A stretch of 21,555 bases of DNA from positions 1 to 21,555 of the IMG/VR virus record IMGVR_UViG_3300010150_000220; one strand, 5' to 3'. The notes beneath the pieces are model-generated. The model saw nothing but the letters and a program-made list of their open reading frames with translations. It made no database searches and was not told where the DNA came from. Within the stretch, counting starts at the first letter, position 1, and each line of letters opens with the position of its first letter. Positions 2,166 through 21,372 of this stretch are shown piece after piece. The position numbers and the translations under genes are program-made. The stretch is from a virus.

Positions 2166-2735
2166 TTATGCGTACTGTATAATAGATGCAAACACTGTAA
2201 ATGTAGCATCTGCTGTTTTTATAATAGTGAATGAGTAAGCATCAATACCTGAAGCATTACCTTCTGTAGGCGCTGATCCACCTTGCCATTTAGGTGTTAC
2301 TGATGATCCATCTACTTGATATGCGTTAAGATAGTATGCAGTAGACCCCTGTGTCATTAATACAGCAGAAGTCATAGATTGACCTATGGCTAAATTTGAA
2401 TTGACATTACTAAAATTAATTGTTCTATTTGCAGTTTGATTTGCTGTATAAAACTCAATTGCTTGAGTAGTAGTATCAAATGTAATTGTGCCAGTTGTAG
2501 TAGTTTGAGTAGTTACTTTTTCGTACACTTCTTCAATGTCTAGTGTGCCATTTATAGTGGCAGTGCCTGTAAGAGTAGGGCTTGCAGTAGGCGCTTTTGT
2601 ATCTAACTGCGTTTGGATTGCTGAAGTTACTCCATCTACATAGTTCAACTCAGTGGTGGTAACAGTAGCACCATCAAGTATCTGTACTTCAGCTTGAGTT
2701 AAGTCAGCTAAAGCAGATGCGGTTGTGCTCCCCAT
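2166..2735 (-). CDS. C-terminal part of an amber-interrupted tail fibre gene
   Basis: The open frame after the TAG at 2784-2786 continues in the same frame as the upstream fibre. The first possible internal start is the ATG at 2735, giving 189 aa, but it has no Shine-Dalgarno and lies inside a repeat that continues upstream (LTELAT before MGSTTASALADL in the intact paralogue at 6111-7160). The region holds two or three more ELNYVDG/QTQLD repeats, then from about residue 75 a beta-rich C-terminal domain ending FTVFASIIQYA, resembling the tip domains of marine-phage fibres and in the same position as the C-terminal domain of the paralogue. It is best read as the distal half of one 467-residue fibre. 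Whether it is translated depends on suppression or readthrough of TAG, or on a sequencing or population artefact. Confidence 0.6.
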   Translation of the reverse strand: MGSTTASALADLTQAEVQILDGATVTTTELNYVDGVTSAIQTQLDTKAPTASPTLTGTATINGTLDIEEVYEKVTTQTTTTGTITFDTTTQAIEFYTANQTANRTINFSNVNSNLAIGQSMTSAVLMTQGSTAYYLNAYQVDGSSVTPKWQGGSAPTEGNASGIDAYSFTIIKTADATFTVFASIIQYA

Positions 2736-2783
2736 AGTTGCAAGTTCTGTAAGCTCAGCATCTAAAGCTTGCTTAGCATCTAA

Positions 2784-2786
2784 CTA
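2784..2786 (-). other. In-frame amber codon interrupting a fibre gene
   Basis: On the minus strand the local reading is GCA ATC CAA ACG TAG TTA GAT GCT. The same repeat elsewhere reads CAG at this point: near 2610 (CAA ACG CAG TTA GAT) and near 6710 (CAA ACA CAG CTA GAT). The change is therefore CAG to TAG (C to T on the minus strand). The frame is open for 206 codons beyond it. Confidence 0.9.
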
Positions 2787-3569
2787 CGTTTGGATTGCTG
2801 AAGTTACGCCATCAACATAGCCAAGTTCAGTAGCTGTCAACGTAGCAGGAATGCCATCTAAGGTGTTTAACTCAGTAGCTGTAGCTGTAACCCCACTTAA
2901 TATATTAAGCTCTGCAGTAGTAGAGTTTACACCGTCTAGAAGGTTTAACTCAGTAGAAGTAGACGTAACACCTAAGTCTGACAGTTTAGAGATTGTCTTA
3001 TTTGCCTCACCACCCATGCCAGAATGATTTACACAGTAGTAATACAAAGTACTTGGCGTGTCTTGTTCAAGCTTAATCTGCGTATAAGATCCTGCACTAC
3101 CTGGCGTACCTACTGAAGTAACACCCGTAGTAAACGCACTACCACCACCATGTGTACCATTTGAAGTTGTGCTAAATAGTAGTGGGTGTCCTGCGTTAGA
3201 AGAGTCAGACTGATCAAACCTATATGTTACAGAAGGAGTAAGTAAAGCAAGTTGTTGCACAGTTCCATCAAGCGCATACTTATTGCCGCCAGAGTTTACT
3301 ACAGTGACTGCAATTGTGGCATACGGTTGCTTCGCATCTATTTGTGTTTGAACATTAGATGTAACACCGTCAACGTGGTTTAACTCTGCAGTAGTAGATG
3401 TAACACCATCTAAAATGTTAAGATCCGCTACTGCTCCTGTAAAACCATCTAGCTTATTTAACTCAGCAGCCGTAGCTGTCAAGTCATTTATTTCAGATAC
3501 ACTAATGTTTCCATCTGCCAACTCACCGCCAGTAGACATATAGTTAGCTAAATCTCTTGCTTTACTCAT
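2784..3569 (-). CDS. Tail fibre with cupredoxin-like insert, N-terminal part ending at in-frame TAG
   Basis: 261 aa with a good ribosome binding site (AAGGA upstream of ATG 3569). It starts MSKARDLANYMSTGGELADG, a common fibre N-terminus in marine phages. Residues about 28-80 carry repeats of the ELN-LDGV type. Residues about 83-193 form a different domain with the pattern of a small copper protein: H128 in a GHPLLFS motif, then C179, H182 and M185 in YYYCVNHSGMGG. Repeats resume at about 200 and run to the stop. The frame ends in the middle of a repeat at TAG, where the other copies read CAG (Gln), and lacks the C-terminal tip domain, which lies downstream in the same frame (2166-2735). If TAG acts as a stop the product is a tipless fibre, probably unable to bind its target. 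Confidence 0.75.
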   Translation of the reverse strand: MSKARDLANYMSTGGELADGNISVSEINDLTATAAELNKLDGFTGAVADLNILDGVTSTTAELNHVDGVTSNVQTQIDAKQPYATIAVTVVNSGGNKYALDGTVQQLALLTPSVTYRFDQSDSSNAGHPLLFSTTSNGTHGGGSAFTTGVTSVGTPGSAGSYTQIKLEQDTPSTLYYYCVNHSGMGGEANKTISKLSDLGVTSTSTELNLLDGVNSTTAELNILSGVTATATELNTLDGIPATLTATELGYVDGVTSAIQT

Positions 3570-3579
3570 CTGTTAATCC

Positions 3580-4077
3580 TTACGGTTTTGTAGGCCAATC
3601 ACTATCTTCAAGATCAGGCCAATTGCTGTGTGATGGTAGATCACGTAGAGCCTGACGATATGCTGTCATAGCATCTGTCATTGTTACATCTGACAGAGCA
3701 TAGAAGTCTGTCTCAGCAAGTAAACTAGCTCTTGTGTTACGGTGTCCTTCAGCAGTTCTAGCATCTAGTGTAGCTTGATATGCAGCTTCATGCTCTGCCT
3801 TGGTGGTTGTTACGCCATCTTCTGTAGTGTCAGCAAACATGTCACGAGCAACATACTTTTCTACCCAGTTACCATTACTGTCCTGCTCAACACCATCACG
3901 TACAGATGTTTGATATGCTGTAGTGGTAGCAGCAGGACTACGTAGCACTGCATCTATATTAAGTGCATCTAGTACATTACTGTTCCACACTTTAGGTAAA
4001 GACATATTAGGATTAGCTGCTCGCCATTGCCCTTGTGTTTTAACTTCACCTGTTGTTCTGTTTCTGTATTCACTCAT
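3580..4077 (-). CDS. Putative tail fibre assembly chaperone (Phage_tail_APC-like C-terminus)
   Basis: 165 aa. The C-terminal 50 residues show the pattern RASLLAETDFYALSDVTMTD followed by AYRQALRDLPSHSNWPDLED and a WP near the end. Loss of a starting Arg/Leu, Ala-Glu-Thr-Asp, then Tyr-Arg-Gln-Ala-Leu-Arg-Asp and a Pro-Trp-Pro ending is the signature of the tail assembly chaperone C-terminus (Pfam Phage_tail_APC, also seen in XkdW and fibre-assembly proteins). The N-terminal part (1-110) is polar with a repeated Tyr/Arg/Thr pattern and has no motif I recognise. It sits between two fibre genes, as expected of a protein that helps fibres fold or join the tail. The AAAGGA site lies eight bases before the ATG at 4077. 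Confidence 0.65.
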   Translation of the reverse strand: MSEYRNRTTGEVKTQGQWRAANPNMSLPKVWNSNVLDALNIDAVLRSPAATTTAYQTSVRDGVEQDSNGNWVEKYVARDMFADTTEDGVTTTKAEHEAAYQATLDARTAEGHRNTRASLLAETDFYALSDVTMTDAMTAYRQALRDLPSHSNWPDLEDSDWPTKP

Positions 4078-4130: not shown

Positions 4131-6104
4131 TTATGCAATTGCGTAGAAAACATATCTAGCACTAGAAGCATTTACCTGAGCATTGCTTGAACCTAGTGAA
4201 AAACCAGCGTTATAAGGGTCTACATAGTCAGTGCCTGTAGCTTCTGCTGCCTTGTTGTTTATTGTTAACACACCATCTGTTCCTGCATTAATACCTCTAC
4301 GGGTATCAAATACATTCCAATCATAGCCTGTAGTATCTACACGTTTAATTAATACAAATCTAGCACCGTTTGTAAAGCCACAATCTATTTGTTTTCCTGC
4401 AGAGCCTGACCCTGTATAATGCCCTACTTTACTTACACCATCTAGTGTTGCAAACAAATAAGCAACATAATCTTGATTGTTGCCATTTGTGTTAGCTGTA
4501 TTGTTTACAGTAAAAACACTTGCTGTTGGAGCAGTATTATTAAAGTAAGAACTTTCCCCAGATTCTGCAGTAGTTCCATTTAATCTTAACTGATAGTTTG
4601 CGGGATTGGTTCCTGAGTTTGCCCCAGAATGATATACTGCCCATTGTGATGTGGCTCCTCTTCGTTTAATCCATATCATTTCAGGCGCAACACCTAAATT
4701 ATGTTCTACGTTTTGAGCAGACGATGTTCCATCATAGCAGACAACATCAAAAAAGTGAGGTGCTCTACGCCACATCCACGATTGAAAGTCAGTATTGCTA
4801 CCACTAGAACCCCACCCATTCATGTAGTCCATACCTGCATAAATCAGATTATTAGAGGTAGCTTCTGCATCAGTATCATTTACACAAAGGTGAAATGCAA
4901 GATCATTATTAGCCCCATACCTTACTCTGTCATGTATTTCATAGTCTTGTGAACTAGAAGTGATACTTTTATGAAATGCCATATCTACTGTTTTCATAGT
5001 AGATGATTGATATGTAGGTGCCGTTCCATCTAAGTTTGCCATATCAAAAACTTCATCAGCATCTTCTGGCACTGCCATTGGGCCACGGCGTATGGCTATA
5101 TAAATATAGTCACCAATATCTCCACCAGTATTATTTCTAAATCCATCATGATTTAAGCGAATAGAAGATGTGTTATTTTCTGCACTAGTTGCCTGAAGTG
5201 TCACCTGTCTAGCATAAGTAAAATCAGGACCACCCCCAAAAGGAAAACCACGCATAGTATCTACCACTGTCCACGCAGCACCAGACATATTATAGCCTTT
5301 TATTAGTACCCATTGTGGTTCAAATCCAATATCTGCAGCAAAAGTTTTTCCAGAGTTAACAGTATATTTACCACATTTAATAATGTCTTGATCACCATCA
5401 GGGCCGAAATTACCATCACCATTATTGTGCGCCCATAAATAAGCAACATATTCACCGCCAGATTGATTTACATCGTGGTTTGTACCTAAAGTAAATTGAG
5501 TGCTAGTTGGAGCTGTATCATTCCATCTTGAATTATTGTTAGCCCGTTCATCTTGTGTATTTAGTTGCATGTAATAATCTTCTGGCGCAGTAGCATCCAT
5601 GCTTCTATGAAAAACTTGCCAAGGACCAGCACTATCTAAACGTTTTACCCAAATACATCCTGGCACACTGCCAAGATTATGGCTTACATTATGTCCTGCA
5701 GTTCCGTTACCCGTATATTTTACTACATCAAAAAACTTAGGAGCTTTACGAAATGTCCAAGAAAGATATTCAGTGTCACTAGCGTTTGTACCGCCATAGG
5801 TTCCAGTAGTAAATCCATCAGAATTAAACGAGCTTAACGCAGCAGACTGTGTTGTTAGCAGTTGAGTTGAAGCCGACATCACATACTTAGTTGCACCGTT
5901 CTCAGTATCAAAGAAGAAAGTGTTAGCAGGGATACGACCTCTTTGAATAACTAGGCCACCACTTCCTTCTAAGTCAATGTCGTTAGTGATAGCCAATGAA
6001 GAACCCGTGCCCGTATATAAATAGTTACTGAACACGTTTTCTACATTTAAAGGATCACCACCTAAACCAGAAGCAGCATTTAATACAATTTTACTAGCAG
6101 TCAT
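4131..6104 (-). CDS. Tail fibre or adhesin with duplicated DUF7483-like domain
   Basis: 657 aa. After an N-terminal attachment-like region (1-110) there are two copies of the same domain, at about 116-287 and 443-605. Each starts FRKAP-FFDVV or WRRAPHFFDVV, followed by a (H/E)HNLG-P--IW(V/I)KR motif, a W-V(F/Y)H segment, a conserved NDTAPT or NNTAPT, D/EYVAYL, and a closing W-V-DT-RG. Between and after the copies are beta-rich segments; the last ends YVFYAIA. This domain is abundant in marine-phage virion proteins and I know it as DUF7483. It is probably a receptor-binding or glycan-binding fibre part, but function is unproven. The gene follows the preceding fibre by six bases, and its own ribosome binding site is poor (GGGG), suggesting translational coupling. 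Confidence 0.75.
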   Translation of the reverse strand: MTASKIVLNAASGLGGDPLNVENVFSNYLYTGTGSSLAITNDIDLEGSGGLVIQRGRIPANTFFFDTENGATKYVMSASTQLLTTQSAALSSFNSDGFTTGTYGGTNASDTEYLSWTFRKAPKFFDVVKYTGNGTAGHNVSHNLGSVPGCIWVKRLDSAGPWQVFHRSMDATAPEDYYMQLNTQDERANNNSRWNDTAPTSTQFTLGTNHDVNQSGGEYVAYLWAHNNGDGNFGPDGDQDIIKCGKYTVNSGKTFAADIGFEPQWVLIKGYNMSGAAWTVVDTMRGFPFGGGPDFTYARQVTLQATSAENNTSSIRLNHDGFRNNTGGDIGDYIYIAIRRGPMAVPEDADEVFDMANLDGTAPTYQSSTMKTVDMAFHKSITSSSQDYEIHDRVRYGANNDLAFHLCVNDTDAEATSNNLIYAGMDYMNGWGSSGSNTDFQSWMWRRAPHFFDVVCYDGTSSAQNVEHNLGVAPEMIWIKRRGATSQWAVYHSGANSGTNPANYQLRLNGTTAESGESSYFNNTAPTASVFTVNNTANTNGNNQDYVAYLFATLDGVSKVGHYTGSGSAGKQIDCGFTNGARFVLIKRVDTTGYDWNVFDTRRGINAGTDGVLTINNKAAEATGTDYVDPYNAGFSLGSSNAQVNASSARYVFYAIA

Positions 6105-6110
6105 AGTTTA

Positions 6111-7160
6111 TTACCCCAGTGCTTGTCCAAGCGTAAATCCGTAATAGGTTGTACCACCGTCAACTGTCATAAAACCAAATACGTCTACACCTGCATTAGT
6201 AGCAGTTATTGTTGGTGCGGTAGCAGCAGCCCAGTCAACGCTTGAAGGCCATGTAATAGTTCTTGCTGAACTATCCTGTGTTATCTTTAGAATAAAAGCA
6301 GATGCTCTGCCTGATGCTGCAGGGTTACTGAATGTGTATGTTACGTTTTCGGACAGTGTGTGTGTAAATACATTACCATCACGTAGGTTAATCGTAGCTG
6401 CATTTGAACTAGATGTAATGGCAGTACTTTCCTCAACAGTACCATTGTCAAATGAAACAACTCCGTTGCTGTCTGCAGTTACAACTTTACTTGCTTCTGA
6501 TAGACCTTCTGTAGTTACGTCTACCCTGTTAAGATCAGCAACTGCTCCCGTATAACCATCTAGCTTATTTAACTCTGCTGTGCTGACAGTAGCACCATCA
6601 AGTATCTGTACTTCAGCTTCAGTTAAATCTGCTAAGGCTGCTGCAGTTGTACTTCCCATAGTTGCAAGCTCTGTTAGTTCAGCATCTAGAGCTTGTTTAG
6701 CATCTAGCTGTGTTTGCAAAGCAGATGTAACACCATCAACGTAGCCAAGCTCAGTAGCTGTCAGAGTGCCAGGAATACCATCCAGAACATTCAATTCTGC
6801 TGGTGTAGATGTAATGGCAGCGCCACCTACTTGAAGTGTAGTAGCATTAACCTCACCAGAGGAACCGTACACCACACCCTTACTATTTACAATACTTCCT
6901 GCACTAGATCCATCAAGAAGGTTTAACTCTGCTGGTGTAGATGTAATGGCAGCGCCACCAACCTGTAGTGCAGTGCTTGCATTTACTGTTGGTGCAGTTG
7001 CTGTACCTGTAAATGTAGGACTAGCTAACGGTGCAGCACCACTAATTTTACTTAGTGCTATGGCTGCACTAGCATTAATGTCTGCGTTTGTAATAGTACC
7101 ATCTGTTATATTAGTACTTGTGACATTAGTTGGTGCTGGTTGATTACCAATGTAGGGCAT
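6111..7160 (-). CDS. Tail fibre protein with ELN-LDG repeats
   Basis: 349 aa with a strong site AAGGAG nine bases before ATG. The N-terminus MPYIGNQPAPTNVTSTNITD is a common fibre start in marine phages. Residues 66-211 hold a series of short repeats built on TPAELNLLDG, TATELGYVDG, QTQLDAKQ and ADLNR or similar, probably a trimeric beta-helical or coiled shaft. Two repeats are almost identical at DNA level (see the 32-bp repeat). The C-terminal 110 residues form a beta-rich tip (TYTFSNPAASGRASAFILKI, then a WPSSVDW loop, ending TYYGFTLGQALG), a tip type frequent on phage fibres. Residues about 134-211 share a long nearly identical segment with the amber-interrupted fibre downstream. No catalytic motif is visible. 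Confidence 0.8.
   Translation of the reverse strand: MPYIGNQPAPTNVTSTNITDGTITNADINASAAIALSKISGAAPLASPTFTGTATAPTVNASTALQVGGAAITSTPAELNLLDGSSAGSIVNSKGVVYGSSGEVNATTLQVGGAAITSTPAELNVLDGIPGTLTATELGYVDGVTSALQTQLDAKQALDAELTELATMGSTTAAALADLTEAEVQILDGATVSTAELNKLDGYTGAVADLNRVDVTTEGLSEASKVVTADSNGVVSFDNGTVEESTAITSSSNAATINLRDGNVFTHTLSENVTYTFSNPAASGRASAFILKITQDSSARTITWPSSVDWAAATAPTITATNAGVDVFGFMTVDGGTTYYGFTLGQALG
6796..6827 (-). repeat. 32-bp direct repeat, copy 1 (fibre shaft)
   Basis: A 32-base stretch encoding part of GGAAITSTPAELN is identical to 6928-6959 and lies 132 bases (44 codons) from it, in the same frame. It belongs to the fibre repeat units, and near-identity at DNA level suggests recent duplication or gene conversion. 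Confidence 0.85.
6928..6959 (-). repeat. 32-bp direct repeat, copy 2 (fibre shaft)
   Basis: Second copy of the 32-base repeat of 6796-6827, encoding the same GGAAITSTPAELN segment in the shaft of the 349-aa fibre. Recombination between copies would remove or add exactly 44 codons without shifting the frame. Confidence 0.85.
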
Positions 7161-18887: not shown

Positions 18888-20474
18888 CTAGTATCCAAAT
18901 GTTGAATCTGCAGCTTGAAAACCTGCATTGTGTGATACAGGATTATAATCCCATAGAGAACTTCTAGGTCTTGTCATTATACCGTCTCTGATAGCATCGT
19001 ATAAGTGATCTTCAGCATTAGTATCTACATCTTCTGGGTTTCTTTTGTCTAAAGGTATGCTTGGTAGTTGAGCTATAGAATGAGTGCAAGTCGAAAAGAA
19101 CACCAACCTTGGCTCATCAGTGTACTCATCCACTTGCAAGCGGCGGTGAAGCTCGTTCTTACCTGCAACCCTTGAGCCTCGTGAACGGTCTGAAGGCCTC
19201 CACCTACATCCCTTTTGATTCATCTGCTCAGCCAAGGAAGGGCCAGTGTCACCTCTTTTGTGCCACAGGGAGCTATCCAACACGCCGTACCTTATACTAC
19301 CATCTTCAGCTTCCGCTTCAAGAATCATGTCAGCTAGATCAGTAGCTGTAACTTTAGAACAATATAACTCTCTGTAGACAACAAGCTGCTCAGAGGGTGA
19401 TACAGCAAACCAGACAACGCCTGTGAAACTTCCGTAGCCGTAGTCGCAAGCTCTAAACTTAGTCCACCCTGAGGGAATTTTAAAAGGGTCCACGACATGT
19501 ATGGATCTGTTCCATTCAGGAAATGCTGCACCTTCGTTGACATCCCAATTACCTTCTAGTAGTTGCTTTCTTTGATGCTCTGGTAGTGACAGAAGCATAG
19601 CTTCATAGTCACCACTATCAGCTAGGTACGGATTATCAAAGAGGCTGGCAGGTATAAACCTTCTTTTGAACAGGGGTTGTCCAGCTTTACTATGTCCTGC
19701 AGGGAAGCGTAATACCTCACCAGTCTCTATGTTCGTTGCCCAAAAAGATGTATTAACAGGTGATGGGTCAATGAACATTTTTTTAACCCAAGCATGTCCT
19801 ACTCCACCTGGGTTAGTTGTAGCTCGCATATACAAACCTAAGTCTTTGTTTGCACTACGTAATCGGGATCTCATGTAATCCCACGCAAAGGGTGACTGCC
19901 ACTGCGTCAACTCGTCAAACGCTACATAGTTAAACGCCTGTCCTTGATAGCGCATAACGTCTGTGTCTCTGTCCAAGTACGACATCCAAAGTGTGCCGCC
20001 TCTTGGTGTAGTCCACTGGCTTTTACGCTCAGACCACTTTATTCCCGGTATAGCCTTAGGGTACAACTCTTGGCTTTTCTGTATAAGCTCTCTGAGTTCC
20101 TCTGTCGTGTGACGTACAAGAAGCCCACTAAAGTCAGGACTGTTCATATTACGTAAAGGGTCAGCTAGTGTAGCGTAACTCTTACCCCCACCCGCTGCTC
20201 CACCATATAGTACCTCACGTTCACCTGAAGCTAAGTACTCTGTCTGTGGCCCAGCGTTAGGCTTAAAGACAATGTTCTGCGATTCCTCTACATCATACTC
20301 AGGTGGTTTGACCTGCGCTGGGCTGGGTGTCGCTACTATCGGTTCCGTCTTCTTCGTAGACGAAATAGCCTGTGTAGTTTTTTTCGAGCGCTTCGATTTG
20401 TTGTAACGCTTTTTCGAGCCGCTTGGTGTAGTAGCGCTTAATTGCAGCAAGACGCTTTCTTTTTCTTTCGACAT
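18888..20474 (-). CDS. terL: Terminase large subunit (packaging ATPase and nuclease)
   Basis: 528 aa. The ATPase half has a Walker A of GGAAGGGKS (91-99), a Walker B of FNYVAFDE (181-188), and a coupling motif TTNPGG (219-224). The nuclease half has acidic residues in RACDYG (D344), VLDSS (D400) and EDHLYDA (D489, D493), which are the expected RNase H-like metal ligands. The first 57 residues are basic and low complexity, and overlap the end of the upstream gene by 176 bases in another frame. The next Met in frame (M110) is past the Walker A, so the start cannot be moved out of the overlap. An AGAGAG site lies before ATG 20474. It ends with TAG, the only such gene stop I find here, with TAA seven codons on. 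Confidence 0.92.
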   Translation of the reverse strand: MSKEKESVLLQLSATTPSGSKKRYNKSKRSKKTTQAISSTKKTEPIVATPSPAQVKPPEYDVEESQNIVFKPNAGPQTEYLASGEREVLYGGAAGGGKSYATLADPLRNMNSPDFSGLLVRHTTEELRELIQKSQELYPKAIPGIKWSERKSQWTTPRGGTLWMSYLDRDTDVMRYQGQAFNYVAFDELTQWQSPFAWDYMRSRLRSANKDLGLYMRATTNPGGVGHAWVKKMFIDPSPVNTSFWATNIETGEVLRFPAGHSKAGQPLFKRRFIPASLFDNPYLADSGDYEAMLLSLPEHQRKQLLEGNWDVNEGAAFPEWNRSIHVVDPFKIPSGWTKFRACDYGYGSFTGVVWFAVSPSEQLVVYRELYCSKVTATDLADMILEAEAEDGSIRYGVLDSSLWHKRGDTGPSLAEQMNQKGCRWRPSDRSRGSRVAGKNELHRRLQVDEYTDEPRLVFFSTCTHSIAQLPSIPLDKRNPEDVDTNAEDHLYDAIRDGIMTRPRSSLWDYNPVSHNAGFQAADSTFGY

Positions 20475-21127: not shown

Positions 21128-21372
21128 TTTACTTTCCTATAGGCTTTGGTTTTAGCTGCAATCTTCTTAGGCTGAGCCACATGCTGCTTACCTGCCTTAG
21201 TGCCTTTTCGTTTAGCTCTGGTTGTAGCGGCGTACTCAGAATCGCTAAGAGACTTAATAGCCTTAGCAGGTAGATAACGCTCACCAGTTTTAGCACTAGG
21301 CTTACCACTCTTAGTACGCCACTTCTGTTTAGTCCAAGACTTTAAACTCTTTTGAGATTTAGCAAGGGCCAT
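21124..21372 (-). CDS. Small basic protein (packaging-module accessory)
   Basis: 82 aa with about a third Lys and Arg. It starts MALAKSQKSLKSWTKQKWRT and has TGERYLPAKAIKSLSDSEYA in the middle, then a Lys-rich tail (KAGKQHVAQPKKIAAKTKAY). Proteins with KSQKSLKKWTKQKWRTKSGK and ERYLP-KAIK-L---EYAATTRAK are common in marine phages near the terminase and nucleic-acid genes; I am not sure of the DUF number. The ATG overlaps the stop of the preceding gene (TAATG) and the end overlaps the next gene (ATGA), so it is tightly coupled. High charge suggests nucleic-acid binding. Function unknown. Confidence 0.75.
   Translation of the reverse strand: MALAKSQKSLKSWTKQKWRTKSGKPSAKTGERYLPAKAIKSLSDSEYAATTRAKRKGTKAGKQHVAQPKKIAAKTKAYRKVK

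Follow-up and report, generated by a model that had tools for sequence, protein, structure and literature searches.

A premature TAG in a phage tail-fibre-like gene: a commonplace one-off mutation or an error in the consensus

The question raised by this locus is whether a stop codon inside an otherwise intact phage fibre gene reflects an unusual way of reading TAG or a change of a familiar kind. The window, the whole stretch of DNA analysed, comprises 21,555 nucleotides of the viral record IMGVR_UViG_3300010150_000220, a contig from a marine phage. An earlier note, made from the letters of the window, described a single fibre gene split by a CAG-to-TAG change. It offered five explanations: fresh loss by mutation, a suppressor or recoded TAG, programmed readthrough, phase-like variation, and sequencing error. 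The parts of the gene and its intact paralogue are these:

Positions 2166 to 3569, minus strand: tail-fibre-like gene of 467 codons, interrupted in the window contig; an intact 467-aa ORF in a conspecific contig.
Positions 2784 to 2786, minus strand: premature TAG at codon 262, where the conspecific contig has CAG and each aligned relative has Gln or some other amino acid.
Positions 2787 to 3569, minus strand: translated first part of 261 aa; it holds an N-terminal segment and some of the repeat shaft, and is served by a ribosome-binding site of its own, TAAGGA.
Positions 2166 to 2783, minus strand: remainder that translation no longer reaches; its 205 codons are open, and its first ATG (2735) is not preceded by any Shine-Dalgarno-like match.
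Positions 2169 to 2549, minus strand: tip domain, 127 aa, beta-rich; AlphaFold2 pLDDT 90, all 28 family-invariant residues kept.
Positions 6111 to 7160, minus strand: intact paralogue of the fibre, 349 aa; its matching repeat codon encodes Gln.

Read on the minus strand from 3569 to 2166, the frame has 468 codons, made up of 261 residues, the TAG, 205 residues and a TAA. A fibre repeat of the LDG/VDG type crosses the stop (...VTSAIQT, then TAG, then LDAKQALDAELTELATMGSTTA...). At the matching repeat position the paralogue reads TSALQTQLDAKQALDAELTELATMGSTTA, with Gln where the interrupted fibre has TAG. The TAAGGA motif precedes the start at 3569, while no Shine-Dalgarno-like match was found before either ATG 2735, the first after the TAG, or the next candidate start, TTG 2648. 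No further decay is seen in the sequence 3' of the stop. The single 467-codon frame, the repeat running across the TAG and the CAG of the conspecific contig bear out the earlier description of one split gene. The details that went with it are right as well: the Gln in the paralogue, and a second half that is open (205 intact codons, with the 127-aa module at the C-terminus) and has no ribosome-binding site before ATG 2735. For the fibre, searches of Pfam and NCBIfam brought up no useful match. A 43-bp near-identical repeat occurs twice within the gene, at 2601-2643 and 2778-2820, 177 bp apart; the pair is a possible site of unequal recombination, which would change the length of the shaft.

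A protein search of IMG/VR found a second contig of the same species, IMGVR_UViG_3300025108_000226 (31,969 bp). It spans the entire window at 99.865% identity, with 29 substitutions in 21,555 bases and no indels. Codon 262 is CAG in this contig, and the fibre gene is one uninterrupted ORF of 467 codons. The earlier note had named reads with nothing but CAG as evidence against its CAG-to-TAG change; CAG is what this other contig has, as an assembled sequence and not at the level of reads. Sixteen of the 29 differences fall between 6984 and 7137, within the N-terminal part of the paralogue. The 13 dispersed differences comprise seven synonymous, four missense, one intergenic and one nonsense, the last being the fibre TAG. 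Besides the TAG, 11 of the dispersed differences lie in coding sequence; because 7 of these are synonymous, as in natural variation under selection, the two contigs appear to differ mainly by real mutations. Leaving aside the tract 6984-7137 and the fibre TAG, the pattern of differences is, judged from the alignment, that of ordinary strain variation. Roughly 2% of the possible transitions in the window genes create a stop (259 C-to-T sites plus two for each of the 74 TGG codons, in 6,754 codons), so that one nonsense change per dozen coding changes needs no special cause, provided that selection has not yet acted.

The tract in the paralogue has a history of its own. The other allele is present, letter for letter, in conspecific contigs L169 and L170 (99.4-99.6% identity to the window), and the window version is further from all relatives than that allele. 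Going by the alleles compared, the tract appears to have entered the window's lineage by recombination. A diversity-generating retroelement was considered as the cause of the cluster and rejected, since many of the changes are synonymous and the position is N-terminal. Besides the fibre TAG, this lineage has a divergent stretch in the second repeat fibre, at 6984-7137. Directly upstream of the interrupted fibre is a tail-fibre assembly chaperone-like gene (3580-4077; PF16778, phrog_4912), preceded in turn by a 657-aa fibre with DUF7483 at 4131-6104. The gene order of the structural cluster resembles that of CRP-2 and CRP-9.

Comparison with relatives gives the direction of the change. In DNA alignments the coding strand has C at the site in all 35 aligned stretches of other fetched contigs. 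At the protein level there are 79 distinct aligned places, 64 of them with a residue at the site, although these include several repeat units of one protein and are not all independent. Gln, as CAG or CAA, occupies 52 of the 64, and the remaining 12 have Glu, Ile or Thr; none has a stop. With C in every stretch, Gln at most sites and no stops, the fibre TAG is derived. A degenerate search of IMG/VR found no exact match with a stop at this repeat codon, in a collection from which the window's own record may be excluded. An exact 32-base search allowing C or T at the site had two matches, the conspecific contig and a more distant one that also has CAG. Among the sequences compared, then, the TAG is private to the window contig. 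The earlier note had called for this alignment of homologous fibres, and the absence of a stop among the 64 sites leaves a recoded or programmed TAG unsupported.

The use of TAG elsewhere in the window can be followed in the terminase gene:

Positions 18888 to 20474, minus strand: terL, whose stop, TAG, is placed at the same residue as the stop of terL in CRP-2; it serves as a control for TAG termination.

The protein ends in ADSTFGY before this TAG, and an in-frame TAA is the seventh codon past it. As the TAG falls at CRP-2's residue, TAG evidently terminates translation in this lineage. The 21 closed genes of the window stop with 16 TAA, 4 TGA and 1 TAG, and a 5'-open gene adds a TAA that overlaps the ATG at 21372. 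The recount thus agrees with the 17 TAA, 4 TGA and single TAG of the earlier note, which had also placed the TAG at terL and a TAA seven codons behind it. Within genes, the fibre TAG is the only in-frame TAG in 6,754 codons; no other gene has an internal one. As for a suppressor tRNA(CUA), which the earlier note had advised looking for, no tRNA genes of any kind were detected in the window, the conspecific contig of 31,969 bp or the complete CRP-2 genome. Isolated RCA phages, with the exception of CRP-7, likewise have no tRNAs (PMC6918029).

The tip domain that the TAG cuts off is a mobile C-terminal module, noted also at loci L049, L066, L118 and L124. Among relatives it is joined to many different shafts. 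There are 28 invariant residues common to 46 aligned copies, and the window copy keeps all of them. Some relatives have stand-alone tip-domain genes of about 138-190 aa, mostly with their own starts and GGA/AGG-type motifs, and with distinct N-termini. In a set of 87 distinct tip-domain ORFs, the window's is the only one with an in-frame stop and repeats that continue upstream of it. The two halves are therefore not normally separate genes of such a kind; had they been, that would have counted against the earlier note by its own terms. By sequence, no convincing solved relative of the tip was found. A search of its fold against the PDB gave no significant match (best, the capsid spike 9ny6 with E 1.4e-3; T4 gp9, 0.08). 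Predicted phage proteins gave many strong fold matches, including several with tail-fibre or collagen-repeat annotations.

With these observations the explanations can be weighed. If the phage or its host read TAG as glutamine, the full fibre would be made, and the open frame past the stop and the ancestral Gln would fit. Such recoding has been proven in some gut crAss-like phages (PMC9523058). It is nevertheless extremely unlikely here: the one in-frame TAG contrasts with the many in recoded phages, terL terminates in TAG, tRNA genes are lacking, and the conspecific contig has CAG. None of the three marks of code 15 (many in-frame TAG codons, a phage suppressor tRNA(CUA), TAG unused as a terminator) was found. 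Programmed readthrough or phase-like switching, either of which would yield long and short fibres, could draw on the occurrence of TAG and CAG alleles in one species. However, a programmed stop would be conserved, and this one is conserved in no relative. Nor was a homopolymer, an inverted repeat or a template copy carrying T seen at the site, and we know of no switch that consists of a single transition without one of these. We regard both mechanisms as very unlikely. Hardly any weight can be given to the suggestion that the tip part is a gene expressed by itself, as are the short tip proteins of relatives. The ORF after the stop would, at 189 aa, match them in size, but the window's first ATG lies inside the repeat with no GGA/AGG-type motif before it, in contrast to the starts, motifs and separate N-termini of the short genes, and the conspecific contig has a single ORF there. 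A further idea, conversion of the site by a neighbouring repeat, was rejected because CAG stands in the paralogue and in the gene's own near-copy alike.

Two of the five original options thus survive, fresh loss by mutation and sequencing error. The conspecific CAG, the absence of a stop in relatives, the TAG of terL, the lack of tRNA genes and the missing substrate for switching contradict the other three or leave them without support. An error would mean that an amplification, sequencing or assembly artefact entered the consensus of a phage whose fibre gene is intact. CAG stands in the only other contig of the species to span the site, none of the relatives has a stop at the codon, and a single C-to-T change suffices, which is about as believable in a metagenomic consensus as a real mutation. 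C-to-T is the commonest amplification and deamination error, which counts against a real mutation, and purifying selection should keep a fibre-killing change out of a consensus, which favours an artefact somewhat. The site also lies inside a repeat, whose 43-bp near-copy is found elsewhere in the gene at a distance of 177 bp. However, this near-copy and the other matched repeat units have CAG or CAA, so that collapse of the repeat could not supply the T, and natural variation seems to explain most of the remaining differences between the two contigs. An error is a serious contender that we place somewhat below an even chance. The absence of decay 3' of the TAG fits a very young mutation and an error alike. 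We lean, if only slightly, towards a real, recent nonsense mutation private to this contig; this preference and the weight given to error are judgements, not computed values. That the TAG is a real segregating polymorphism, maintained because virions without the tip adsorb to a subset of hosts, seems improbable.

On the preferred reading of a real mutation, a coding-strand C-to-T transition would have converted a Gln codon of the repeat shaft to TAG in one genome lineage of what is probably an HMO-2011-type (CRP-2-like) roseophage, whose other sampled genome has the fibre gene whole. Translation should end after 261 residues, and restart is not expected, leaving a shaft stub without the C-terminal tip domain. 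The fibre would then probably be non-functional, and the genome either defective or able to adsorb with other fibre proteins.

The fibre TAG is a commonplace one-off mutation or an error in the consensus, rather than a novel decoding of a stop. Its importance is small, apart from the fact that one near-identical contig settles a question of recoding that a single sequence had left open. A split fibre gene met in one metagenomic contig should be compared with conspecific contigs ahead of any proposal of readthrough or recoding. In a search of the literature, no account of a naturally occurring amber mutation in such a fibre gene stood out.

Among known systems, the closest is a phage fibre gene hit by a naturally occurring amber mutation. 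The window shares with it the single C-to-T change from Gln to TAG, the otherwise intact gene and a wild-type allele in the same species, the marks of an ordinary nonsense variant; it differs in that the variant is known from an uncultured, assembled contig alone. Phages with genetic code 15 (PMC9523058) also have TAG where relatives have Gln, but the window phage has a single such TAG, no detected suppressor tRNA, a terL that terminates in TAG, and a conspecific contig with CAG. The HMO-2011-type roseophages CRP-1 and CRP-2, together with CRP-9 and CRP-13, have a similar gene order around the fibre cluster and a related repeat shaft. These phages, which are in culture, share only about 73-76% DNA identity with the window over short stretches, and their fibres are mosaic, with other tips and lengths.
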